36,313 nucleotides of DNA, taken from contig JAHEYG010000027.1 in NCBI GenBank assembly GCA_023251725.1, forward strand, positions 1 to 36,313, read 5' to 3'. A model generated the notes under the pieces. The model was not told the DNA's origin and did not search any database. It saw only the letters and a program-made list of their open reading frames with translations. The position numbers and the translations under genes are program-made. Source of the stretch: Sphingobacteriaceae bacterium. Its GTDB lineage: Bacteria > Bacteroidota > Bacteroidia > B-17B0 > Aurantibacillaceae. Of this stretch, positions 2,497 through 34,615 are shown piece by piece (positions within the stretch are counted from its first letter, which is position 1; every line of letters starts with the position of its first letter).

Positions 2497-4656
2497 CTAC
2501 TTCAAAATCTTCATCTCATTTAAAAGATAACCTGCTCCGGCAAATTTATCGATGATAAAAAGTGTGTAGCGAACATCCAAAACAATATTGCGGCACTGAT
2601 TAGGATTATACATTACATCGCTCATCGTTCCTTCCCAATTACGATCAAAATTAGTACCAATGAGTTCGCCCTTGCCATTTAAAACCGGCGAACCGCTGTT
2701 TCCTCCAGTTGTATGATTGCTTCCCGTAAAAGCAATATGCAATTTTCCGTTCTTATCAGCGTAAGCGCCGTAATCTTTTTTAGCATACAATTCTTTTAGT
2801 TTAGGAAACACAACAAACTCATCGCTTTTAACATTTTCTTTTTCCATTAAACCATCAATCGTTGTAAAATAATCGTAATGAACTCCATCGCGCGGCTCGT
2901 AATCATTTACTTTACCATAAGCCACACGCAAGGTTGAATTAGCATCTGGATAGAATTTTTTATCTTTAATTAATTCGCGCATGGCTTTTACATATTCTTT
3001 TTGCAAATCATTAATTTGTAATTCATCATAATTGGCTTGCGGAGAAACAGAAGTTTGATAATATTTTGAAACCGAATACGTCATTTGATAATACGCGTCC
3101 GACTCATAGGTTTTATAATTTTTTTCAAAGTCATCGAACATTACCTTCGCTTTGTCGTTATCAATAAAGCTTGAAGAAGAATATAAATATTTCGCCACTT
3201 GCTCTCCATTATTATTATTAGCAGTAAGTAGCGAATCTAAATAACGCGGGCGCGCCAATTTATCCACACCCTCCACATAAGCATTGAGCATAGCGATGCA
3301 AAGTTTATAATCGGTTTCCTTATTCATATTTTTAAACGGAATGGATTTTCTAAGATCCGCCAGCATTTTATCGAATTTATTTTCTTTACCGGCTTCTTTC
3401 TTTTTTACTTCGGCAAACAATCCAATAAAATTTTGAGTAAAGCGCACGCCGTCAATTCCCAATAAACACTCGTTGTAATAATCCATTTGCTTACTTAATA
3501 CCGAATACTCGCTATATAATTTCTTAAACTGATTAAACATATCCCTGTATTTTTCTTTCTTACCAGGAAAAGCAGAAGCCAATTCTAAAAACTTTTGTTC
3601 AAATACTTGTTTCTTTTCAACCGCATTGTATTTTTTTAATCCAATCATTTCTCCACTCCACTTCTTATAGTAATTTGCCACTCCCGCGTAAGCGTTGGCA
3701 TAAGCTAAACGCAAGGCTGTACTTTTTTTCATGTCTTCTTCCAATATAGATAATCTTTTTGCACGCAACGCTACTCTTCGCGGATTGGTTTCGTTTATCA
3801 ACATTTCTACAGCGTAAGAAGTTAAATATTCTTGTGTCCTTCCCGGGAAACCGTAAACCATTGTAAAATCACCTTTCTCATACCCTTTTAATGAAATAGG
3901 AATAGAATGTTTTGGTTTGTACGGAACATTATCCACCGAATAATCGGCCGGCTTATTATCTTTACCGGCATAAATCCGAAACAAAGAAAAATCGGCATTG
4001 TGTCGCGGCCACACCCAATTATCAGTCTCGCCCCCAAATTTACCTATGGAAGAAGGCGGTGCACCAACTAATCTTATATCGCGAAAAGTTTCGGTAACAA
4101 ATAAATAATATTCGTTGCCATAAAAAAACGGACGGATAAACGCACCATAATTCGTTCCCAGCATCGCTTCAGCTTCGAGCATTTTTATATTTCCTTTTAT
4201 AGCAGAGTCGCGCTGCACTTCCGAATAAGTTGCTTTTAAATTACCAAGAACTTTGGTTGTAACTTCGTCGATTCGATTGATAAAAGTAACCGTTAAACTT
4301 GGTGTATAAATTTCTTCGTTAGGTGCCATCGCCCAGAAACCGTTAGTTAAATAATCGTGTTCAACGGTACTGTGCATGGTGATAGAAGAATACCCACAAT
4401 GGTGATTGGTAAGAATTAATCCTTTTTCAGAAATTATTTCGGCAGTACATCCTCCGCCAAATTGTACAATGGCATCTTTTAAACTGGATTTATTTACACT
4501 ATAAATTTGTTCGGCCGTTAATTTGCATCCGTTTTTTTGCATGTCTTTAATATTTAAAGCCTGAAGCATTTGCGGAAGCCACATACCTTCATCGGCGATA
4601 CAAAAAATAGTTAGTACGGAAAAGTGAATAGTTAAGAGTATTTTTTTGATTAACAT
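2497..4656 (-). CDS. S46 family dipeptidyl peptidase, DPP11-like (acidic P1)
   Basis: 719 residues with an N-terminal signal peptide. S46 peptidases remove dipeptides from peptide N-termini in the periplasm of Bacteroidota that feed on protein. The catalytic triad is visible: His85 in TNHHCGY, Asp222 in WPRHNADFSLF and Ser654 in GGNSGSPV. Length and residue numbers closely follow Porphyromonas DPP7/DPP11 (His85, Asp227, Ser655). The S1 pocket residue lies 18 after the catalytic Ser; in the family Gly there marks DPP7 (hydrophobic P1) and Arg marks DPP11 (Asp/Glu P1). Here it is Arg672 (in FDRNWEGT), so cleavage after Asp/Glu is predicted. The gene stands alone, transcribed leftward, preceded by a repeat array; I see no clear promoter. 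Confidence 0.9.
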   Translation of the reverse strand: MLIKKILLTIHFSVLTIFCIADEGMWLPQMLQALNIKDMQKNGCKLTAEQIYSVNKSSLKDAIVQFGGGCTAEIISEKGLILTNHHCGYSSITMHSTVEHDYLTNGFWAMAPNEEIYTPSLTVTFINRIDEVTTKVLGNLKATYSEVQRDSAIKGNIKMLEAEAMLGTNYGAFIRPFFYGNEYYLFVTETFRDIRLVGAPPSSIGKFGGETDNWVWPRHNADFSLFRIYAGKDNKPADYSVDNVPYKPKHSIPISLKGYEKGDFTMVYGFPGRTQEYLTSYAVEMLINETNPRRVALRAKRLSILEEDMKKSTALRLAYANAYAGVANYYKKWSGEMIGLKKYNAVEKKQVFEQKFLELASAFPGKKEKYRDMFNQFKKLYSEYSVLSKQMDYYNECLLGIDGVRFTQNFIGLFAEVKKKEAGKENKFDKMLADLRKSIPFKNMNKETDYKLCIAMLNAYVEGVDKLARPRYLDSLLTANNNNGEQVAKYLYSSSSFIDNDKAKVMFDDFEKNYKTYESDAYYQMTYSVSKYYQTSVSPQANYDELQINDLQKEYVKAMRELIKDKKFYPDANSTLRVAYGKVNDYEPRDGVHYDYFTTIDGLMEKENVKSDEFVVFPKLKELYAKKDYGAYADKNGKLHIAFTGSNHTTGGNSGSPVLNGKGELIGTNFDRNWEGTMSDVMYNPNQCRNIVLDVRYTLFIIDKFAGAGYLLNEMKILK

Positions 4657-20052: not shown

Positions 20053-20442
20053 ATGACTAAAGAATCCCCCGAACTTGAAATCAGTCACTCGCAACTTTCG
20101 TTAAACTCCAACGGAATAATAGAAATTAAATGCGCTGCTAATTTCGAATACGATGTGAAACATATCAACGAAAATTATGCAGAAATAAAACGGCTTTCTA
20201 AAAGCAAAAAAGCTTTAGTTTTAAATTTAGTGGGAAGTCATTCAGGAATTACCAAAGAGGCTCGTGAATATGTGGCTTCCGGTCCACACAAAGATTTTAT
20301 TAAGGCAGAAGCTTTTGTTTTGCATTCGGTGGCTCATAAAATTTTAGCCAACTTTTATAATAAAATAAGCAAACCAATTGTACAGGTAGGGTTTTTTAAA
20401 AATAAAGCGGATGCAGAGAAATGGTTATTAAGTTTGGAATAA
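20053..20442 (+). CDS. Small STAS/SpoIIAA-like protein
   Basis: 129 residues, cytosolic. The pattern of alternating strands and helices, with KALVLNLVGSHSGITKEAREYVAS in the middle (core ALVLNLVGSHSGITK) and a final AEKWLLSLE helix, fits the small STAS/SpoIIAA-like proteins seen in Bacteroidota. These bind partner proteins or lipids; no phosphorylation site or partner gene is evident here. The family assignment is from overall pattern and is modest. It converges with the dehydrogenase gene with five bases between stops. Confidence 0.5.
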   Translation: MTKESPELEISHSQLSLNSNGIIEIKCAANFEYDVKHINENYAEIKRLSKSKKALVLNLVGSHSGITKEAREYVASGPHKDFIKAEAFVLHSVAHKILANFYNKISKPIVQVGFFKNKADAEKWLLSLE

Positions 20443-24751: not shown

Positions 24752-24786
24752 TTTGTTGATTTAAGTGCATTTAGTTTTTACATTTG
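24752..24786 (+). promoter_or_regulatory. Promoter of the dab operon
   Basis: TACATTTG (24779-24786) is an exact -7 match. TTTG at 24752-24755 is 23 bases upstream; TTGA at 24756-24759 gives the 19-base spacing. The -7 box ends four bases before the GTG and ten before the ATG of orf1, so orf1 should be read from a message with almost no leader. I see no comparable promoter in the 120 bases before dabA, which suggests orf1 to sulP1 are one unit. Confidence 0.55.
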
Positions 24787-24790
24787 AACC

Positions 24791-25144
24791 GTGAAAATGA
24801 CTAAGCCCGCATATTTTTCTCTTGGATTTCTATTTCTCTTTGTTACGTCCTTTTCAACGAATACTTTTATTTCTTTTAACAGTTCCATTAAACAAATCAT
24901 CCATATTACAATAGCCAAAGAATTAAATTCTGACTCCACTTCCGCCGCTGCTTCAGAAGATTTAGTGTTTGAAGAAACCGAAAATGACGGCGAAGATGCC
25001 CTTGACCCTATTCAGACTTATTTACCTGCCTTTTTAAATTTTGATGTATTTATTCAAAAAATAAATATTCATTTTTCTGAATTTATTGACCTTCACAAAA
25101 AATTAAACTCCATATTCTTAAGCATCCGCGTTATAAGAATCTGA
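24791..25144 (+). CDS. orf1: small exported acidic protein before dabA
   Basis: 117 codons from GTG 24791, or 115 from the ATG two codons later (24797). No family recognised. The protein has an N-terminal hydrophobic segment (YFSLGFLFLFVTSF) like a signal peptide or anchor, then an acidic linker (SEDLVFEETENDGEDALD, about residues 55-72) and a C-terminal part of amphipathic, Phe/Ile/His-rich sequence ending in LSIRVIRI. No cysteine, no lipobox. The same three-part plan occurs in orf2 and orf3 of this cluster, and orf2 ends in ISLHVFRI. Its place as first gene before dabA-dabB suggests a role in inorganic-carbon uptake: an accessory subunit, sensor or assembly factor. That role is inference from position. 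Confidence 0.7.
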   Translation: MKMTKPAYFSLGFLFLFVTSFSTNTFISFNSSIKQIIHITIAKELNSDSTSAAASEDLVFEETENDGEDALDPIQTYLPAFLNFDVFIQKINIHFSEFIDLHKKLNSIFLSIRVIRI

Positions 25145-25264
25145 TTTTTTGGGGTCGCTTGTTTCACAACGCGGTGTTATATTCTTTTTTATTTTTTCAA
25201 AAATCAAATTCCTATTTTATTTTAATTGCATTAATACAATTTATTAAAAAATTGTAGCATTCAA

Positions 25265-27847
25265 ATGAAAACAGAAACATCAGTTTCATCTAAAAACGAA
25301 ATTCTTCACGAGATGAAAGATCCCACATCTTCTTTCAACGAACATGATGTTATTCATAATTTAAAACATTACTTGCCTACACAAGCAGCTCTGCGAGATT
25401 TTATTCATCACAATTCGTTACACGCATTTCAAAACTTAAAATTTTACGATGCTATATTTAAGGCATCTAAAATGTTCGGGTATCAGGTAACTTTGCAATT
25501 AAACGAATTCAGAACCCTTTATAAAAACGGAAGAATTAGAAAAGATGTTTTAGAAAAAGTAATTTGTGATAAAAAAGGTCTGGAGCAAGTTGAAAAATGG
25601 AAAGTGAATTTAATTTCAAAGGACTACGACTGCACTAATGCTCCACGCGTAGGTGTTTTGCGTTCGAATTGGAAAACTCAATGTAAATTAGATTTAGATT
25701 CATTAGTACAGCCTTTATTATTCAGAATTCTTAGCAATTATTTAGATCAGGGCATTTCACTTTGGAAATTTCCGGTGGGAAATAAAAGTTTCCTTGATTC
25801 TATAAAAGAATTAGAAAAAAATAGTTACATAAGTTTTTTCAAAACAAAACGGGCCAAACAACTTTTGTTAAGCGGTGATTGCCAAATTAAATCGCTTCTT
25901 AAAATTGTTGTAGGAGATGAAAAATATTTCGAACAATATTTATTTGATCAGCAATTTGCCCATCAGGGCTGGTCGGGCATTACCTCCGCTATTGAAGATA
26001 TGCCCCAAACTTTGATGGATACAAAAAATATTACGCTTCGCGATTTAATTATTTTTGAACTTATTTTGGAAATTGACGCTCTTGATTTTAATCTCCCAAA
26101 AAACTGGCAGCCTCTCAGTAATTTTGTAAGTACAGAACCTATTGATTTATTTGATAAAGTCCCCACCAATGAAATTAACGAAGTGTTTACCCTATGGCAA
26201 AATGCTTTTGAGTGGAGTTATTACGATGGTGTAATTACCGGAATTGCACTTGGAAAAAAGCAGCCTCAAAAAAATATTCCCAAAAAAAGTTTTCAAGCTT
26301 TGTTTTGCATCGATGAACGCGAATGTTCTATCCGCCGCCATACTGAAACCAGCGATGCCAATTGCGAAACTTTTGGAACGCCAGGATTTTTTACCGTTGA
26401 ATTTTATTTTATGCCCGATGGAGGAAAGTTTTATGATAAACTTTGTCCGGCCCCCGTTACTCCAAAATATTTGATAAAAGAATTTAACGCAAAAGAAAAA
26501 CGCGGACATGAAACCCTCTATTCGCATTTATCTCATACTTTTTTTATTGGTTACTTCGTTACATTAACTCTGGGCTTTTGGGCAGCCGTAAGATTATTTC
26601 TGAATTTATTTAAACCGGCTATGAGTCCCGCCATTTCTAATGCGTTTACGCATATGGATAATGATTCGCAGCTGCTCATCGAAAATAAAAATCTCAAAGA
26701 TCGCGAAAATGGTTTGCAAATTGGATTTACCATTGAGGAAATGGCGGCCCGAGTAGAAAGTCTTTTAAGAAGTATTGGATTGCTTAAAGATTTTGCTCCT
26801 ATTGTATATGTTATTGGTCACGGATCGAGCAGTGCTAACAATCCGCATCACGGTGCACACGATTGCGGAGCCTGCAGCGGCCGGCCGGGTTCTGTAAATG
26901 CAAAAGTGTTTGCATTTATGGCCAATCATAATAAGGTACGCCAAGTATTAAGCGCAAAAGGAATTGTTATTCCAAATGAAACACAGTTTATAGGCGGATT
27001 ACACGATACGGCCGCTGACCAAATAAAATTTTATGATACAAAAATACTTTCCGAAAAAAATAAAGAACAACACACTAAAAATGCTGTTGCTTTTGAAAAC
27101 GCCTTAGATCTTAATGCAAAAGAACGCTCGCGAAGATTTGCATCCATTAACACAAAATTAAGTTTGAAAAAAGTACGCGAAGAAATTCGTAAAAGATCGG
27201 TTTCATTATTTGAACCTCGACCTGAACTGGGGCACGGCACTAACAGTTTATGCATTATTGCCGGCAGAAATTTAACCAAAGGTTTATTTTTAGACCGACG
27301 CGCCTTTCTTAATTCTTACAATTATGAAACCGATCCTGATGGAAAAATATTAACAGGAATAATGAAACCTGTTGGTCCGGTTTGCGGTGGTATTAATTTA
27401 GAATACTATTTTTCGAGAGTTGATAATCACAAATTCGGTGCGGGAACAAAACTACCACATAATGTTGTTGGATTATTTGGTGTGGCTAATAGTAGCGACG
27501 GTGATTTACGACCCGGCTTACCTGTGCAGATGATTGAACCGCACGACCCGGTTCGCTTGCTTGTAGTGATTGAACATTTTCCGGAAATAGTTTTAAAAGT
27601 TATTCAGTTTATGCCCGAAATGTACGAGTGGTATATTAACGAGTGGATTCATTTGATGGTAGTGAATCCTGAAACCAATAAATTTTATTATTTTAAAGAA
27701 GGACAATTTGCAGAATACGCTCCGCTTCCGGTTCAAATTGATTCCTTAATTGACTTTAATGTTTTGATGGATTCGGCTTTGGAAATGGAAACCAATCATA
27801 TTGAAGATGCCACTCACGAAAATTTACCTGTTTTTATTTTGAAATAA
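25265..27847 (+). CDS. dabA: DabA: DUF2309 carbonic-anhydrase-like subunit of the DAB carbon pump
   Basis: 860 residues. DabA is a zinc protein with a beta-carbonic-anhydrase-like site that, with the membrane subunit DabB, is thought to hydrate CO2 to bicarbonate in one direction, powered by the cation gradient. All four key positions known from Halothiobacillus DabA2 (Cys351, Asp353, His524, Cys539) are matched here: Cys348 and Asp350 in LFCIDERE, His519 in VIGHGSSS and Cys534 in HDCGACSG, with the same 2- and 15-residue spacings. The second half keeps the DUF2309 hallmarks FEPRPELGHGTNS, PVGPVCGGINLEYY and GLPVQMIEPHDP. It is cytoplasmic and membrane-bound through DabB. dabA precedes dabB here; in several known operons dabB comes first. 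The gap to dabB is three bases. Confidence 0.94.
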   Translation: MKTETSVSSKNEILHEMKDPTSSFNEHDVIHNLKHYLPTQAALRDFIHHNSLHAFQNLKFYDAIFKASKMFGYQVTLQLNEFRTLYKNGRIRKDVLEKVICDKKGLEQVEKWKVNLISKDYDCTNAPRVGVLRSNWKTQCKLDLDSLVQPLLFRILSNYLDQGISLWKFPVGNKSFLDSIKELEKNSYISFFKTKRAKQLLLSGDCQIKSLLKIVVGDEKYFEQYLFDQQFAHQGWSGITSAIEDMPQTLMDTKNITLRDLIIFELILEIDALDFNLPKNWQPLSNFVSTEPIDLFDKVPTNEINEVFTLWQNAFEWSYYDGVITGIALGKKQPQKNIPKKSFQALFCIDERECSIRRHTETSDANCETFGTPGFFTVEFYFMPDGGKFYDKLCPAPVTPKYLIKEFNAKEKRGHETLYSHLSHTFFIGYFVTLTLGFWAAVRLFLNLFKPAMSPAISNAFTHMDNDSQLLIENKNLKDRENGLQIGFTIEEMAARVESLLRSIGLLKDFAPIVYVIGHGSSSANNPHHGAHDCGACSGRPGSVNAKVFAFMANHNKVRQVLSAKGIVIPNETQFIGGLHDTAADQIKFYDTKILSEKNKEQHTKNAVAFENALDLNAKERSRRFASINTKLSLKKVREEIRKRSVSLFEPRPELGHGTNSLCIIAGRNLTKGLFLDRRAFLNSYNYETDPDGKILTGIMKPVGPVCGGINLEYYFSRVDNHKFGAGTKLPHNVVGLFGVANSSDGDLRPGLPVQMIEPHDPVRLLVVIEHFPEIVLKVIQFMPEMYEWYINEWIHLMVVNPETNKFYYFKEGQFAEYAPLPVQIDSLIDFNVLMDSALEMETNHIEDATHENLPVFILK

Positions 27848-27850
27848 ATT

Positions 27851-29719
27851 ATGTCAACACTCCTTCAAATATTTATTCTTATTCCCTTAGCAGGTTTTTT
27901 GGTTAGCTTGTTTTTACCCCGCAAAAAAGAAAGAGTTATTTCAGCATTTGCAATTTCCATTATTGGATTCAATCTTCTTGTTTTTATAATTTTTACTGTT
28001 TATTGGTTGATGCATGATCATCCTATGCTGAACGAAAAAAAAATTTGTCTTTTTAAATCTTCCGATTTCGAATTTTTTATTGACTTTTATTTTGATAAAA
28101 TTACATTGGTGTTTGCCGGTGTTGGTGGCGTTCTGGCTTTTCTGGTTTCCATCTTCAGCAAATATTACATGCATCGCGAAGAAGGATTTAAACGTTTTTT
28201 TAATACCATTCTTTTATTTTACACCGGTTACAACCTTGCAGTTTTTTCTGGTAATTTTGAAACCCTTTTTATGGGATGGGAAATTATAGGTATTGCTTCT
28301 TTTTTATTGATTACTTTTTATCGCGACCGTTATTTACCGGTAAAAAACGGGTTAAAAACGGTTTTTGTTTATCGCATAGGTGATGTGTGTTTTATATTAG
28401 CGATGTGGATGTGTCACCACTTGTTTCATGAAAACATTTCATTCATAAAATTATACAGTTCTCAATTATTTAGTTCCGAACTTACAGGAAATTATTTTAC
28501 TGGCATTTGCATCGGAATATTGTTTTTAATTGCCGCAGCGGTTAAATCTGCACAGTTACCCTTCTCATCTTGGTTGCCAAGAGCAATGGAAGGTCCGACT
28601 ACATCGAGCGCTATTTTTTACGGTTCGTTATCTGTTCATCTGGGAGTTTTTCTTTTATTGAGAACATTTCCTTTATGGGAAAACATGTTGCTGATTAAAA
28701 TATTAATTATTATTGTCGGACTAAAAACAAGTTTAATTGCTGCAAGTATTTCCAGAGTTCAGTCAACCGTTAAAACGCAAATTGCTTATTCATCCATTGG
28801 ACAAATCGGAATTATTTTTATTGAATTGGCGTGTGGATTTCATACCTTAGCATTAATTCATTTTGCAGGAAACGCTTTTTTAAGAACCTATCAACTTTTG
28901 GTTTCACCATCGGTGTTAAATTATTTAATTCATCATCAAATTTATTATTTTGAACCTCATAAGTATGATGAATCTGATTCATTTCTTAAAAAAATTAAAT
29001 ACTCATTTTATATTTTGTGCGTAAAAGAATGGAATCTCGATTTTTATTTATTCCGTTTTTTATGGGAACCTTTTAAATGGATTGGAAAAAAGTTTTCTTT
29101 TTTGAAAGGGAAACTATTTATCGCTTCCTTTATTGGGATTTATTTATTGGGATTAATGTGTTATTTTATGCAAGAAAACATTCCTCCAATTATAATTGAA
29201 TTTTTACCGGGCCTTTTTTCTTGCTTGGCTCTCATTTTAGTCTTAAAAGCATTTACCGAACGAGGAGAAGCAATTGATGCCTGGCGACTAATTGTATCGG
29301 CACAGTTTTTTGTTGCCCTAACTATTGTGGTTAATGAATTACCTGATTTAATTAAAATTTTATTTTTTATGAGCGGTATTATCCTCTCGGCCATTACAGG
29401 TGCTATCATTTTAACCAAAATAAAATCTAAGGAAAATAATATTGACTTAAATTGTTTTCATGGAAATACCTACGAACATCCCAAATTTGGATTTGTTTTT
29501 CTGCTCGCTTGCCTAGGACTTATCGGTTTTCCAATAACTCCCGCCTTTGTAGGAATTGATTTATTGTTCAGTCAAATTCATTTAAATCAGGTTCTTATTT
29601 TAACTTTTATTTCACTCACATTTGTTTTTACCGGAATTTCGGCTTTAAGAATTTATGCACGGGTATTTATGGGACAACATAAAAAAACATATCATCCAAT
29701 GGCTTACAAATCATCTTAA
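27851..29719 (+). CDS. dabB: DabB: NuoL/MrpA-like membrane subunit of the DAB carbon pump
   Basis: 622 residues, about 14-16 membrane segments, of the proton-translocating antiporter family (Proton_antipo_M). The ion-path residues of NuoL-type subunits are present: Glu144 in FMGWEIIGIASF and Lys232 in AAVKSAQLPFSSWLPRAMEGPT. A lone gene of this family next to DUF2309, with no other complex I or Mrp genes, identifies DabB rather than NuoL. It would couple H+ or Na+ entry to CO2 hydration by DabA. The next small gene begins two bases after the stop. Confidence 0.92.
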   Translation: MSTLLQIFILIPLAGFLVSLFLPRKKERVISAFAISIIGFNLLVFIIFTVYWLMHDHPMLNEKKICLFKSSDFEFFIDFYFDKITLVFAGVGGVLAFLVSIFSKYYMHREEGFKRFFNTILLFYTGYNLAVFSGNFETLFMGWEIIGIASFLLITFYRDRYLPVKNGLKTVFVYRIGDVCFILAMWMCHHLFHENISFIKLYSSQLFSSELTGNYFTGICIGILFLIAAAVKSAQLPFSSWLPRAMEGPTTSSAIFYGSLSVHLGVFLLLRTFPLWENMLLIKILIIIVGLKTSLIAASISRVQSTVKTQIAYSSIGQIGIIFIELACGFHTLALIHFAGNAFLRTYQLLVSPSVLNYLIHHQIYYFEPHKYDESDSFLKKIKYSFYILCVKEWNLDFYLFRFLWEPFKWIGKKFSFLKGKLFIASFIGIYLLGLMCYFMQENIPPIIIEFLPGLFSCLALILVLKAFTERGEAIDAWRLIVSAQFFVALTIVVNELPDLIKILFFMSGIILSAITGAIILTKIKSKENNIDLNCFHGNTYEHPKFGFVFLLACLGLIGFPITPAFVGIDLLFSQIHLNQVLILTFISLTFVFTGISALRIYARVFMGQHKKTYHPMAYKSS

Positions 29720-29721
29720 CA

Positions 29722-30063
29722 ATGAAAATGGTTTTTAAAAAAATAATCAGTTTCATTCTCTTGCTCTGCTTTACTTTTTGTACAGTAAGCGTATTTGCAT
29801 TTAATTCTCAGTCACTTATTAAGAAAAATCAATGCCTTAGTCCATTGAAGACAAAAACAACCGATTTTTCGATGTATGCTGAATTAGAAGAAGAAGATGA
29901 TGATTCTGATACTGATACCGACATAACGTTTACTAATTTATTTTTTGAAAGCATTTCTCGTTCTCATGATTTTATTTTAATGCATCAGCTTAACGAAAAT
30001 CATTATTTAAAATCACAAACTACACTTCCAATATACATTTCGCTTCACGTTTTTAGAATATAG
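29722..30063 (+). CDS. orf2: small exported acidic protein between dabB and sulP1
   Basis: 113 residues, starting two bases after the dabB stop, so certainly cotranscribed. An N-terminal signal-like segment (FKKIISFILLLCFTFCTVSVFA, core IISFILLLCFTFC) likely cleaves after VFA. A strongly acidic run follows (AELEEEDDDSDTDTDITF, about residues 53-70) and then a His/Phe-rich C-terminal part ending in ISLHVFRI. The acidic run matches that of orf3 (EEDNDSD) and the last residues match orf1 (LSIRVIRI). Two Cys lie inside the hydrophobic segment and do not form a lipobox. Family not recognised; a role in carbon or anion uptake is inferred from position only. Confidence 0.75.
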   Translation: MKMVFKKIISFILLLCFTFCTVSVFAFNSQSLIKKNQCLSPLKTKTTDFSMYAELEEEDDDSDTDTDITFTNLFFESISRSHDFILMHQLNENHYLKSQTTLPIYISLHVFRI

Positions 30064-30117
30064 GAAAATTATTTTTTTATTTTCTTATAATTTTTTAAAA
30101 TTTCTAAAAACGAAATC

Positions 30118-31728
30118 ATGTCAACACATAAATTTATTCCCGCCGATGGCCTCGAAGGCCTCAAACAAAATTTTCGTAAAGATGCCTTAGCAGGGTTTCT
30201 TGTATTTTTATTAGCATTGCCATTAAGTTTAGGCATTGCTAAGGCTTCTGATTTCCCACCCATTTTCGGATTAGTAACTGCCATCATTGGTGGCGTTGTA
30301 GTAAGTTTTTTTTCGGGCTCACGTTTAACTATTAAAGGTCCGGCCGCCGGTTTAATTGTAATTGCAGCCGGTTCGGTTCACGAATTTGGCGGCGGCGATA
30401 TTGGCTGGCATTTAACTTTGGGCGCGGTTGTATTGGCCGGAATAATTCAAATTTTATTTGGTGTTTTAAAATTAGGAAAGCTTGCCGATTTTTTTCCTGG
30501 CGCTGCCATTCACGGAATGTTAGCCGCTATTGGAATAATAATTATGTCGAAGCAAATTCATAATTTAATGGGAATAGATCCCGTCCATTTAAAAGGCAAA
30601 GAACCTTTAGAATTATTGGCTATGATTCCAGATAGTTTGGTTCACGAAAATGCACACATTACCGAAATCGGAATGGCTTGTTTACTGATATTGATATTAT
30701 TTAGTTTTATAAAAAATCAACATATCAAAAAAATTCCCGCACCATTGGTAGTTTTGGCAGTGGCCATTCCTTTGGGATATGTATTGCACATTAAAACAGA
30801 GGGCGCTGTACATAATTTTGCGATGGTTAAAGTGGGGAGCTTATTTGATTCTTTTAAAAACGGATTAATTAATGCAGATTTCAGCGGAGTAAGTTCTCAT
30901 ATGGGAGTTTTTATTGAATATGTTATTTTGTTTTCTCTAATCGGAACTATAGAATCGTTACTCACTGCAAAAGCCATCGACAATATTGATCCTTACAAAC
31001 GCAAATCCGATTTTAATAAAGATATGGTTGCTGTTGGAATAGGAAATACCTTTTCGGGATTATTAGGCGGCTTGCCCATGATTAGCGAAGTAGCACGTAG
31101 TTCAGCAAATGTAGGTAACGGTGCGCAAACACGGTGGGCCAATTTTTTTCACGGATTGTTTTTATTAATTGCAGTATTAGTTGCAGTTCCTGTAATTGAA
31201 TTAATTCCGAATGCAGCCTTAGCCTCAATGCTTCTTTTTGTAGGATTTAAATTAGCGCATCCCAAAGAATTTCTTCATATGTGGCACATTGGCAAGGAAC
31301 AGTTTTTTGTGTTTTGTTTAACTGTGGTAGTAACGCTCTCTACCGATTTATTAATCGGCGTAGGAACAGGTATTGCTGCCGAATTAATTATTAATTTGAT
31401 TAATGGAGCTTCCCTTAAAAATTTATTTTCAAGTAAAACAACGGTTAATCAACAAGGACAAGAAGATTACCATGTGCAATTAAACAGCGAGGCGGTGTTT
31501 AGTAACTTAATGACTCTTAAAAAAACTTTGTACTCTTTACCCGATTCAAAAAAAGTTCACATCGATGTTTCGCAAGCTTCAGTGGTTGATCATACCACTA
31601 TTTTAGCACTAAATCAGTTTAAAGACGATTACGAATTAAAAAACGGGAATGTGGCCATTAAAGGATTTGAACATCACCGTCAATTATCGTCGGCACCTAC
31701 TTCGACACGAATTTTAAAAAAAAACTAA
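30118..31728 (+). CDS. SulP family anion permease 1 (probable bicarbonate transporter) with STAS-like end
   Basis: 536 residues. The SulP core has about 14 membrane segments; conserved pieces are ALPLSLGIAKA, the GPAAGL turn in SRLTIKGPAAGLIV, and GLPMISEVARSSANV (about residues 318-332). A STAS-like cytosolic domain fills about residues 450-536 (VHIDVSQASVVDHTTILAL). SulP proteins carry sulfate, bicarbonate or other anions, usually with Na+ or H+. Proximity to dabAB and a carbonic anhydrase favours bicarbonate (as in BicA), but sulfate or dicarboxylate cannot be excluded. It lies 54 bases after orf2, with no promoter of its own seen. Confidence 0.87.
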   Translation: MSTHKFIPADGLEGLKQNFRKDALAGFLVFLLALPLSLGIAKASDFPPIFGLVTAIIGGVVVSFFSGSRLTIKGPAAGLIVIAAGSVHEFGGGDIGWHLTLGAVVLAGIIQILFGVLKLGKLADFFPGAAIHGMLAAIGIIIMSKQIHNLMGIDPVHLKGKEPLELLAMIPDSLVHENAHITEIGMACLLILILFSFIKNQHIKKIPAPLVVLAVAIPLGYVLHIKTEGAVHNFAMVKVGSLFDSFKNGLINADFSGVSSHMGVFIEYVILFSLIGTIESLLTAKAIDNIDPYKRKSDFNKDMVAVGIGNTFSGLLGGLPMISEVARSSANVGNGAQTRWANFFHGLFLLIAVLVAVPVIELIPNAALASMLLFVGFKLAHPKEFLHMWHIGKEQFFVFCLTVVVTLSTDLLIGVGTGIAAELIINLINGASLKNLFSSKTTVNQQGQEDYHVQLNSEAVFSNLMTLKKTLYSLPDSKKVHIDVSQASVVDHTTILALNQFKDDYELKNGNVAIKGFEHHRQLSSAPTSTRILKKN

Positions 31729-31925
31729 AAATATTTTAGTCTCTTACGGTAGCGTAACAATTAGGCAATTGGCCTTTCATAGTTTTCTTATTCTTAAAAT
31801 AGTTAGAGTTTCAGTAAGGCTTTTATAAATATTGAATTAAAACTATTATTTGGAGAGGAAAAATCAGAAGGCAAATTACATAAACGCATTTAGTTAATAG
31901 GTTTAGCCTAAAAAAAACCCTAAGT
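31729..31925. other. Intergenic region after sulP1
   Basis: Two small hairpins follow the sulP1 stop: TTACG/CGTAA with a GTAG loop (about 31744-31757), and AGGC/GCCT with a five-base loop (about 31763-31775) followed by a T-rich stretch. Together they could end transcription, but both stems are short. The remainder is AT-rich with no open frame that I trust. Confidence 0.35.
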
Positions 31926-31955
31926 TTTGTTTTTTCAAAAAAATTTCTAAATTTG
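31926..31955 (+). promoter_or_regulatory. Promoter of the orf3-sulP2-carbonic anhydrase unit
   Basis: TTTG at 31926-31929, 18 bases, then TAAATTTG at 31948-31955, an exact -7 match. The box ends five bases before the TTG start of orf3. It marks a second transcription unit within the cluster. Confidence 0.6.
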
Positions 31956-31960
31956 TATAG

Positions 31961-32278
31961 TTGAAGACAAAATTTCATATAGTTTCATTCATATTGCTTC
32001 TGGCAATGCTTTTTTCGCTTACTCAATACATTTATATTACAAAAGAAAACGCTTCCCAAAAAATTGAATTGGCCAAAAAAGCTGTTGAAGGGGAAGAAGA
32101 TAATGATTCTGACGAAATCGATTATGATACTGACTTAGATGATTTTTTGAATTCAGATTTTAATTTTATTTGTACTACACTTCTTAATACTTCCAATCAA
32201 TTTTTAAATTCTAAAAGAGTACACAAATACCATATTATAGGTATTAACACTCCTCCTCCCGAATTATTTTTCGCTTAG
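31961..32278 (+). CDS. orf3: small exported acidic protein before sulP2
   Basis: 105 codons from a TTG start; no other start would keep the signal-like N-terminus (HIVSFILLLAMLFSLTQYIY). An acidic run follows (AVEGEEDNDSDEIDYDTDLD, core GEEDNDSDEIDYDTD, about residues 42-57), then a C-terminal part with KYHIIGINTPPPELFFA. Aligned on KYHIIGI it matches the C-terminal SIRVIRI of orf1 and SLHVFRI of orf2 and extends ten residues further. One Cys lies in the C-terminal half. It has its own promoter and precedes sulP2 by about 100 bases. Family not recognised. Confidence 0.68.
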   Translation: MKTKFHIVSFILLLAMLFSLTQYIYITKENASQKIELAKKAVEGEEDNDSDEIDYDTDLDDFLNSDFNFICTTLLNTSNQFLNSKRVHKYHIIGINTPPPELFFA

Positions 32279-32379: not shown

Positions 32380-33957
32380 ATGAACAATAAAAATAATATC
32401 AATAAAATATTTAATTCCTCCACTTTAAAATACGATTTAAAAGCGGGTCTGGTGGTTTTTTTAGTGGCGCTACCACTTTGTTTAGGAATTGCGCTGGCGC
32501 AAAATGCTCCTTTATTTTCAGGAATTATTTCCGGAATAATTGGTGGAATTGTGGTGGCATCAGTGAGCGGTTCTAAATTATCCGTGAGTGGCCCTGCCGC
32601 AGGTTTAACCAGTATTGTTTTGGTTTCGGTTGTTTCGCTAGGTTCTTATGAAGCATTTTTATTATCGGTTTGCATTGCCGGTTTACTTCAAATTATAATG
32701 GGAATTGCGCGTGCCGGAATTATCGGATACTATTTTCCTTCGTCTGTAATAAAGGGGATGTTAAGCGCTATAGGAATTATTTTGATTATGAAACAAATTC
32801 CGCATTTATTGGGCGATGATAAAGATCCGGAAGGTGATGAGGCATTTTTTCAGGTAGATAAAGAAAATACTTTTTCAGAAATTCTTCAGATGTTTGATGC
32901 GCCGCATTTTGGGTCTGTTATTATTGCCGCTGCTTCTATTTTTATTTTAATTTTCTGGCAATCAAAAACCGTTACTAAAAATAAAATTCTAAGTAAAATA
33001 CCATCCGCCTTATTAGTGGTAGTGGTAGCCATTTTACTTGATTTAATGTTTCACACCTTTTCTTTATCATTAGAAGTAAAAGACGAACACCTGGTTAAAA
33101 TTCCTGTTTTTACAAGTTTGGATAATTTTTTCAACTCCTTAATTCATCCCGATTTTTCGGCTTGGCAAAATCCAAAAATTTATGAAGTGGCGTTTACCAT
33201 TGCAGCAGTGGCAAGTTTAGAAACCCTTCTTTCATTGGAAGCCATAGATAAATTAGATCCCGATAATAATATTTCTCCAACCAATCGCGAATTAATTGCG
33301 CAAGGTGTAGGAAATTTATGCGCCGGAATGATTGGCGGACTTCCCATCACATCTGTAATAGTTAGGAGTTCTGCTAATGTAAGTTCAGGAGCTAAAACAC
33401 AATTGTCCTCTATCTTTCACGGCATTTTATTTATGGTGGCCATTTTTTTACTTCCCAATTTATTGCAATTAATTCCACTTTCGTGTTTAGCCGCCATATT
33501 AATTGTTACCGGATATAAATTGGCAAGACCGAGTTTAATAAAAAATATTTATAAGCAAGGTATCGATCAGTTTTTACCTTTTATTGTTACAGTAATAGTA
33601 ATGCTTTTGTCGGATTTATTAAAAGGTGTAGCCGTGGGAATAATTATTGCCATTTTCTTTATTCTTAAACAAAACTATAAATCGCCATTTAAATTAATAA
33701 GAGAGGAGATTGAAGGTAAACTTCACATTTATTTAAAACTAGCGCAAAATGTAACTTTCATTAATAAAGGGAAATTTATTGAAGTTTTTAAAAGCATTCC
33801 TGCAGGTGCGGTTGTTTTTATTGATGGTGGAAGAACTACTTTTATAGATAAAGATGTTTTAGAATTGATAAGCGCATTTAAACAAGCTTCTAAAAACCAT
33901 CATATAGAAGTGAATCTTGAAGAAATTCAGGAAGTGCAGGTATTAAGTAATCATTAA
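32380..33957 (+). CDS. SulP family anion permease 2 (probable bicarbonate transporter)
   Basis: 525 residues, a paralogue of the first SulP with the same landmarks: ALPLCLGIALAQ, SKLSVSGPAAGLTS, and GLPITSVIVRSSANV (about residues 321-335). A shortened STAS-like domain occupies the last 80 residues (IPAGAVVFIDGGRTTFIDKD). An acidic loop (GDDKDPEGDEAFF) follows the fifth or sixth membrane segment. It stands 19 bases before the carbonic anhydrase gene, the two surely on one message; SulP-carbonic anhydrase pairs and fusions are known and support bicarbonate as substrate. Two SulP copies in one cluster may differ in affinity or anion. Confidence 0.88.
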   Translation: MNNKNNINKIFNSSTLKYDLKAGLVVFLVALPLCLGIALAQNAPLFSGIISGIIGGIVVASVSGSKLSVSGPAAGLTSIVLVSVVSLGSYEAFLLSVCIAGLLQIIMGIARAGIIGYYFPSSVIKGMLSAIGIILIMKQIPHLLGDDKDPEGDEAFFQVDKENTFSEILQMFDAPHFGSVIIAAASIFILIFWQSKTVTKNKILSKIPSALLVVVVAILLDLMFHTFSLSLEVKDEHLVKIPVFTSLDNFFNSLIHPDFSAWQNPKIYEVAFTIAAVASLETLLSLEAIDKLDPDNNISPTNRELIAQGVGNLCAGMIGGLPITSVIVRSSANVSSGAKTQLSSIFHGILFMVAIFLLPNLLQLIPLSCLAAILIVTGYKLARPSLIKNIYKQGIDQFLPFIVTVIVMLLSDLLKGVAVGIIIAIFFILKQNYKSPFKLIREEIEGKLHIYLKLAQNVTFINKGKFIEVFKSIPAGAVVFIDGGRTTFIDKDVLELISAFKQASKNHHIEVNLEEIQEVQVLSNH

Positions 33958-33976: not shown

Positions 33977-34615
33977 ATGGATAAAAGTTATAAGAGATTA
34001 ATTGATGGCAATAAAAAGTTTGCCCTGGAAAAAAGATTTGATGATCCTGAATATTTTAAAAAATTATCCCTCGGACAAACGCCCGATTATTTATGGATTG
34101 GATGTAGTGATAGCCGAGTTCCGGCCAATGAAGTTACAGGTACCGAAAGCGGAGAAATTTTTGTGCATAGAAATGTAGCCAATCTTGTTGTGCATACCGA
34201 TATGAATTTATTGACCGTGCTAGAATATGCGGTAAAGAATTTAAAAATAAAACACATAATTGTTTGCGGACATTATGGATGCGGAGGAATAAGAGCAGCT
34301 ATGAGTAACAGTTCATTCGGTTTTGTAGATAACTGGCTCCGAAATATAAAAGATGTTTATAATAAAAACCATCAAGAACTTTCGCTTTTAGGCGATGATG
34401 ATAAACGTGCCGACCGGCTAACTGAATTAAACGTAATTGAACAGGTAAGAAATTTAGCAAAAACCACTATTGTTCAGCAAGCGTGGAAAGAAAGACCTTT
34501 ACATTTACATGGCTGGGTTTATGGTATCAATAGCGGATTAATAACCGATTTAAAAGTGATACATGATGGAAGTGAAGATATAGAAGAAATTTATCGCTTT
34601 AAAACTCCCGAATAA
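33977..34615 (+). CDS. Beta-class carbonic anhydrase
   Basis: 212 residues. Zinc ligands Cys43, His99 and Cys102 (GCSDSRVP and VCGHYGCGG) and the Asp45-Arg47 dyad are all present. Length and motif spacing are those of cytosolic Can/CynT-like enzymes. It has no signal peptide, so it acts in the cytoplasm, turning imported bicarbonate to CO2 or the reverse. It ends the orf3-sulP2-CA unit. With a DAB pump in the same cell an active cytosolic enzyme could leak CO2, so its expression may be tuned differently; this is inference. Confidence 0.95.
   Translation: MDKSYKRLIDGNKKFALEKRFDDPEYFKKLSLGQTPDYLWIGCSDSRVPANEVTGTESGEIFVHRNVANLVVHTDMNLLTVLEYAVKNLKIKHIIVCGHYGCGGIRAAMSNSSFGFVDNWLRNIKDVYNKNHQELSLLGDDDKRADRLTELNVIEQVRNLAKTTIVQQAWKERPLHLHGWVYGINSGLITDLKVIHDGSEDIEEIYRFKTPE

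Follow-up and report, generated by a model that had tools for sequence, protein, structure and literature searches.

Three small open reading frames (ORFs), orf1, orf2 and orf3, precede carbon-uptake genes on contig JAHEYG010000027.1 of a Sphingobacteriaceae bacterium (the whole 36,313-nucleotide (nt) stretch is called the window; the study region is 24791-32278). They probably encode exported nascent-chain arrest leaders, that is, regulatory upstream ORFs (uORFs) setting the synthesis of the downstream transporters rather than parts of the transporters themselves. The evidence, all of it computational, is the conservation and placement of these ORFs, a bias in their stop codons, a fixed spacing within the proteins, co-variation of the spacer RNA at the level of leader classes, and the promoter boxes ahead of them. 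The original prediction had described three exported, possibly envelope-sensing proteins standing before dabA-dabB, sulP1 and sulP2 with a carbonic anhydrase (CA) gene. The ORFs are present as described, Pfam identities agree with the placement, the gene order is kept in other genomes, and both export and a possible envelope-facing sensor role are supported. The genes are:

24791-25144, + strand: orf1, class-1 leader, 117 amino acids (aa), or 115 aa from ATG 24797; heads the orf1-dabA-dabB-orf2-sulP1 unit
25265-27847, + strand: dabA, downstream gene of orf1 (Pfam PF10070, 6.5e-211)
27851-29719, + strand: dabB, NuoL-like (Pfam PF00361/PF00662)
29722-30063, + strand: orf2, class-2 internal leader, 113 aa; starts 2 nt past the dabB stop, ends PIYISLHVFRI, stop UAG
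30118-31728, + strand: sulP1, downstream gene of orf2 (Pfam PF00916)
31961-32278, + strand: orf3, class-3 leader, 105 aa, UUG start; heads sulP2-CA
32380-33957, + strand: sulP2, downstream gene of orf3 (Pfam PF00916)
33977-34615, + strand: beta-carbonic anhydrase, last gene of the orf3 unit (Pfam PF00484)

The three leaders, at first taken to be related to one another, belong to two families built on the same plan. A hidden Markov model (HMM) of orf1-type leaders, made without the window sequences, recovered orf1 (9.5e-19) and orf2 (4.8e-10), which are homologous. Homology of orf3 to these two was rejected because orf3-type leaders scored no higher than decoys (2/32; orf3 itself 0.007). Below, orf1-type leaders are class 1, the internal orf2-type leaders class 2 and orf3-type leaders class 3; membership was partly assigned by C-terminal motif, and stop codon, patch position, spacer RNA and promoter boxes were not used for selection. 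The pN/pS ratio (non-synonymous to synonymous change) was approximately 0.46 in orf1-type and 0.44 in orf3-type relatives, indicating purifying (coding) selection. When Pfam and NCBIfam models were run against the window ORFs, orf1-3 had no family match of value (Pfam reporting threshold E ≤ 1). DUF2946 (PF11162) matched none of them at this threshold, nor any of 33 related leaders at 0.01, and the NCBIfam HYC_CC_PP model NF047658 matched none of orf1-3. AlphaFold2 was confident for the N-terminal helix only and predicted no folded domain in the small proteins.

Three parts of the leaders are conserved: an N-terminal export segment, an acidic patch approximately 54 residues before the C-terminus, and the C-terminal tip itself. 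In the window the latter two are:

24971-24997, + strand: orf1 acidic patch EETENDGED, centre approximately 54 residues from the C-terminus
25109-25145, + strand: orf1 C-terminal module SIFLSIRVIRI, UGA stop and next U, conserved relative to the stop codon
29881-29922, + strand: orf2 acidic patch ELEEEDDDSDTDTD, read from sequence
32087-32143, + strand: orf3 acidic patch EGEEDNDSDEIDYDTDLDD, read from sequence; class-3 median 53 residues from the C-terminus
32252-32260, + strand: orf3 PPP codons in TPPPELFFA, the proposed elongation-arrest site

A hydrophobic N-terminal segment (Kyte-Doolittle (KD) score > 1.6) occurs in 66 of 70 leaders. Its end lies a median of 81 to 93 residues from the C-terminus, well beyond the more than 30 residues which, with a conserved C-terminus, characterize SecM-type leaders. 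The acidic stretch, like the hydrophobic segment, is found in orf1-3 and in their relatives, as the original prediction had it for the three proteins, and exceeds chance (mean maximum of 5.8 to 6.2 Asp/Glu per 10 residues versus 3.3 to 3.9 in shuffled sequences). A distance of 50 to 58 residues between patch and C-terminus holds for 36 of 38 class-1 and class-2 leaders (null 11%); for class 3 the count is 20 of 32 (null 13%). No conserved Cys/His motif was found in the aligned leader classes, the acidic patch being conserved instead; orf1 has no Cys at all.

Orf1-type leaders end in P-[IL]-[YF]-[IL]-x5-R-I, followed by UGA-U, and orf3-type leaders in TPPPK. Entropy in classes 1 and 2 (n = 38) falls to 0.8 to 1.3 bits at positions -1, -2 and -8 to -11, from approximately 3 to 4 bits upstream. 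Such conservation is partly built in because the classes were partly assigned by C-terminal motif, although members collected by profile matches and neighbourhood listing show it equally. The end of orf3 had been quoted as YHIIGI; the protein in fact runs on to NTPPPELFFA, and PPP is an invariant feature of its family. In class 3, PPP lies two to five residues before the stop in 32 of 32 leaders, is invariant in 29 aligned relatives and is encoded by all four Pro codons. A proline-rich motif within 15 residues of the C-terminus is absent from the orf1 and orf2 classes.

The stop codon itself is constrained in the classes whose proposed arrest site includes it. UGA terminates 23 of 26 class-1 leaders, each time followed by U, compared with 44 of 415 long ORFs taken as background (p = 7e-18), while the codons of the conserved residues beside it vary freely. 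In class 2, UAA is avoided (1/11, p = 8e-6). Class 3 uses stop codons as the background does and provides an internal control, the arrest proposed for it being before the stop. Conserved residues set against a non-random stop codon are not explained by a protein function; the stop-codon bias lends indirect support to stalling. Readthrough or frameshifting (recoding) at the class-1 UGA was considered and is unlikely, since no conserved extension follows it in any frame.

Most leaders stand at the head of an operon, on the same strand as the next gene and a short spacer away from it (51 to 162 nt, 5th to 95th percentile; median 74), the orf2 type being internal. The spacers fold better than shuffled sequences (mean z -1.77, 69 spacers), and in the classes their hairpins co-vary and reach the next start codon. 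Pairing was compared between the arm at the leader end and either its own partner before the next AUG or a partner swapped in from another species (20000 permutations). Own pairing was stronger in class 1 (-8.98 versus -6.57 kcal/mol), class 2 (-10.15 versus -5.46 kcal/mol) and class 3 (-11.06 versus -7.09 kcal/mol; p < 5e-5 in each). When the arm was masked, as it would be by a stalled ribosome, accessibility of the start region rose above that of shuffles (p = 0.006, 0.04 and 0.0007 for the three classes; control 0.075). The clearest hairpin in the window is that of orf2 (-17.0 kcal/mol, z = -5.0), equalled in stability by 0 of 200 shuffles:

30048-30112, + strand: orf2 RNA hairpin; its 5' side has an outer arm within the VFRI codons (30048-30058) and an inner arm containing the UAG stop (30059-30069)
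30079-30089 and 30102-30112, + strand: orf2 hairpin 3' arms, the last ending 5 nt before the sulP1 AUG

No known RNA family was found when the window was scanned.

The Bacteroidota sigma-A consensus box, TAnnTTTG at -12 to -5 (PMC9723704), lies directly before 22 of 26 class-1 and 20 of 31 class-3 leaders and 2 of 11 class-2 leaders, compared with 7.7% of random stretches. Boxes precede classes 1 and 3 and not class 2, and thus two transcripts are predicted in the window, each beginning with a leader, with an internal leader before sulP1:

24756-24786, + strand: predicted sigma-A promoter before orf1 (TTG 24756-24758, 20 nt, TACATTTG 24779-24786; start approximately 24791)
31927-31955, + strand: predicted sigma-A promoter before orf3 (TTG 31927-31929, 18 nt, TAAATTTG 31948-31955; start approximately 31960)

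Translation of orf1 probably begins at ATG 24797 or GTG 24791, the box placing transcription start, by the same consensus, at approximately 24791. In many leaders (for example that at window position 31961) the start codon is UUG or GUG and follows the box by a few bases, which suggests nearly leaderless mRNAs.

Distribution was followed in 87 genomes of the window's order (DabA match in 39, SulP match in 74). In 60 loci all small ORFs preceding dabA, sulP1 and sulP2 were listed and then classed; block counts are hand tallies. In this order almost all DAB/SulP blocks are headed by a small exported ORF: one stands before 17 of 20 readable dabA-first blocks and before 13 of 13 readable sulP1-first blocks. 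Where the dabB-sulP1 gap is at least 390 nt a leader fills it (13/13), and where the gap is 40 nt or less there is none (0/5). A leader ending in PPPK/E precedes approximately 31 sulP2/CA blocks, and stands before CA where CA is first. Class-1 leaders precede dabA in some genomes and sulP1 in others, whichever gene heads the operon. The small ORF follows the operon head and not a partner gene. In three loci (L080, L095 and L100) dabA is split into two frames by a frameshift or an assembly error.

Among 395 Bacteroidota genomes sampled, 30 have DabA. In the closer DAB type (48 to 64% identity, dabA before dabB) an exported small ORF stands at the head in nine of ten loci, and a leader does so in all seven readable loci of named genomes with this type (Chitinophagaceae metagenome-assembled genomes (MAGs), Lacihabitans sp. 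LS3-19, Cytophagales, Saprospiraceae and Crocinitomix). No leader was seen near the distant type (25 to 33% identity, usually dabB before dabA). Outside the window's order the class-1 profile gives weak matches only, and leaders too diverged for it were found by gene neighbourhood; their endings include PLYILFHSWQHYI, SLYLTQRSLRI (UGA), PLYDLFCNWKFHLS, PLYILHHSWKHFVLPLPRA and KPPRYTA. A Cytophagales MAG (L295) has two leader-like ORFs in tandem (2034-2378 and 3038-3382) before dabA.

The genetic association with DAB and SulP/CA blocks is thus conserved across genomes. Homologues do lie near dab and sulP genes elsewhere, as predicted, but they also lie beside unrelated envelope genes. In the same genomes, profiles of both leader families find matches before CusB/HlyD and AcrB-type genes (RND), outer-membrane efflux protein (OEP) genes, an OprB-like porin gene, TonB-dependent receptor genes and a TerC gene. 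No strict pairing with one transporter was found, the same class preceding dabA, sulP1, OprB-like and OEP genes. Specificity to DAB/SulP was accordingly rejected, and the suggestion of a partner, subunit or assembly factor particular to these systems is not supported. The placement, the lack of a predicted folded domain and the constrained stop codon suit a regulatory leader that is read by its own ribosome.

Two of the profile matches are HYC_CC_PP proteins (NF047658), with a P-type-ATPase gene and a DUF3347 gene downstream. Genes of this family (14 read: L300-L304, L310, L312, L315-L317, L321, L324, L325 and L327) have the orf1-type ending NPLYLKHRVLLI, a UGA-U stop in 13 of 14, and rigid spacing, the last CC lying 73 to 75 residues from the end. 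The whole HYC_CC_PP family may consist of copper-type arrest leaders; no publication naming it was found in a literature search.

From these regularities we infer the stalling, the direction of its effect on expression and the signal, as follows. The N-terminal segment would target the leader to the Sec translocon during its own synthesis, and the C-terminal module would stall the ribosome, at the UGA or UAG stop in orf1 and orf2 and at PPP in orf3. The acidic patch, approximately 54 residues from the peptidyl-transferase centre, would then be inside the SecY channel or slightly beyond it. An outside pull on the patch, by membrane potential acting on acidic residues, by translocation itself or by proton or cation binding, would shorten the stall; if the pull fails, the ribosome would stay. 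A stalled ribosome would cover the 5' arm of the spacer hairpin and free the start region of the next gene, so that dabA-dabB, sulP1 or sulP2-CA would be made. As there are two leader-first transcripts and a third leader inside the first, these steps could be set separately. Such behaviour has precedents: membrane potential pulls acidic residues through SecYEG and releases SecM arrest, with an effect that depends on distance from the arrest site (reviewed in PMC6028853), and in vitro work has demonstrated both PPP stalls and Bacteroidota arrest peptides that stall at a stop codon (PMC10987492).

Several observations weigh against this reading. Only orf2 has a clear hairpin in the window, a real weakness for the window itself; the orf1 and orf3 spacers barely beat shuffles (z -1.3 and -1.2), and masking gains nothing there. 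Control spacers also have a small own-pair excess (0.95). The relatives share descent and are not independent events, so the p-values overstate the case. Some relatives carry residues past the C-terminal module (HSWK types), and the stop is therefore not always part of it. Four dabA-first blocks lack a leader (L065, L067 and L097 in the window's order and L266, of the closer DAB type, outside it). Finally, non-acidic stretches also released SecM arrest (PMC6028853).

The small proteins might instead be subunits, assembly factors or inhibitors of DAB/SulP that act as finished proteins in the envelope. Their conserved co-occurrence with dab and sulP and the purifying selection are in keeping with this, as is the small hypothetical transmembrane protein accompanying DAB1 in Halothiobacillus (PMC13144422). 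A structural subunit is nevertheless unlikely because the DAB2 structure contains DabA and DabB only, as a heterodimer (PMC13144422), and a single helix was all that AlphaFold2 predicted with confidence. Since the ORF precedes any gene that happens to come first, including those for RND pumps and TonB receptors, and since this explanation leaves the stop-codon and spacer-RNA constraints unaccounted for, it appears improbable. Still less credible is that these are ordinary small proteins, exported or secreted, with a C-terminal signal for sorting or for a protease. A conserved C-terminus can serve for sorting, but UGA-U, avoidance of UAA, the hairpins and placement in cis would all go unexplained.

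Two further proposals are versions of the arrest-leader reading and compatible with it. The leaders could act on transcription, the ribosome choosing between termination (by Rho or a hairpin) and read-through as proposed for CruR, which acts through Rho (PMC9426467). Class-1 spacers often have, by eye, a second short hairpin followed by T-rich sequence, and the orf1 hairpin in the window stops short of the dabA start. However, no intrinsic terminator was found in the three window spacers, and the hairpins of classes 2 and 3 extend as far as the following start codon, a better fit to control of initiation, so that action on transcription seems rather unlikely. Somewhat less doubtful is that the leaders monitor the general state of export (Sec, signal recognition particle (SRP) or membrane potential), carbon genes being one of many outputs. 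The acidic patch lies where a potential-driven pull on the nascent chain acts and the same leader types precede unrelated transporters, yet the different middles of the classes suggest separate inputs, and HYC_CC_PP Cys/His motifs keep a fixed distance of their own. Equally tentative is an extension of the arrest-leader reading, in which Bacteroidota combine one stop-coupled module (P-[IL]-[YF]-[IL]...R-I, UGA-U) with more than one kind of sensor: Cys/His motifs responding to copper in HYC_CC_PP, and in the carbon-uptake leaders an acidic patch at the translocon responding to membrane potential, pH or cations. The energization of the membrane, or the chemistry of the periplasm, might then act through the nascent chain and directly set the synthesis of CO2/bicarbonate uptake systems.

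Among the closest known systems is CutF of Rhodobacter capsulatus, which senses copper as a nascent, Sec-exported chain and controls the next gene through a C-terminal proline motif and a spacer hairpin (PMC9973294). Common to CutF and, by prediction, to the leaders described here are a small Sec-exported leader, a sensor motif in the mature part, a translation-slowing C-terminus (proline-rich in CutF) and a hairpin over the next start, and many CutF-like proteins occur in Bacteroidota before OEP, RND and TonB genes (PMC9973294). Unlike CutF, orf1-3 have an acidic patch instead of a Cys/His metal motif, and orf1 and orf2 lack a proline pair near the end; DAB, SulP and carbonic anhydrase take the place of the CutF targets. 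CruR (DUF2946) of Bordetella pertussis also heads a transporter operon and keeps its sensor motif a constant 45 residues away from the C-terminal arrest motif (PMC9426467), but differs in its RAPP motif, copper-binding CXXC, dispensable signal peptide and use of Rho, and orf1-3 do not match DUF2946. The Bacteroidota arrest peptides (PMC10987492) are likewise exported uORFs with a conserved C-terminus that stall in vitro at a stop codon or PPP; they precede secA/secDF and use NSP, NAP or LPPP, whereas the leaders described here carry PIYIxxxxFRI or TPPPK and adjoin dab and sulP. HYC_CC_PP proteins, in the same order of genomes, have the same C-terminal module and UGA-U stop but HYC and CC motifs in place of the acidic patch. 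SecM, VemP and MifM share nascent-chain arrest read by pull at the translocon and controlling the next gene; their arrest motifs are different, and the genes downstream of them are protein-export factors. No secA, secDF or yidC was found downstream of the leaders, where dabA, sulP, CA, RND, OEP, TonB receptor and TerC genes stand.

Arrest-type leaders are described for copper and protein-export genes, and none for carbon uptake was found in the literature. New here, if arrest occurs as proposed, would be the carbon-uptake targets, the acidic sensor and the stop-coupled module shared with HYC_CC_PP. Bacteroidota bicarbonate/CO2 uptake would then be governed by nascent-chain leaders, as has so far been described for metal homeostasis and for protein export. 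The leaders would also be a concrete candidate for a natural nascent-chain sensor that relies on acidic residues within the translocon, and their stop-coupled arrest module would be shared by HYC_CC_PP, a family both widespread and unexplained. For annotation this would mean that many of the small 'hypothetical exported proteins' encoded ahead of transporters may have a regulatory role and never accumulate. As Lacihabitans sp. LS3-19 (L294), a named strain, carries a leader, the proposal can be tested.

Some minor observations concern genes beside the leaders. An OprB-like porin gene follows a class-1 leader at L183:6175-7518, and in some clusters a gene of similar size without a Pfam match (L071:9331-10704) lies between sulP1 and dabA, perhaps encoding an outer-membrane part of the uptake system. 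A Band_7/SPFH lipoprotein-like gene (L191:6715-7503, L183:7530-8318) recurs beside carbonic anhydrase or leader-headed clusters. A leader with the ending IQIPPPKKVRA (L207:4907-5293) is separated by 71 nt from a TerC-family gene downstream. A distinct family of approximately 123 aa (PLAVIxEDVLAHT...NSPPPKA; L209-L213) lies 145 to 200 nt before TonB-dependent-receptor-like genes (Pfam-checked in L213 alone). In the window itself, 20053-20442 encodes a DUF7793 domain protein near dnaB.

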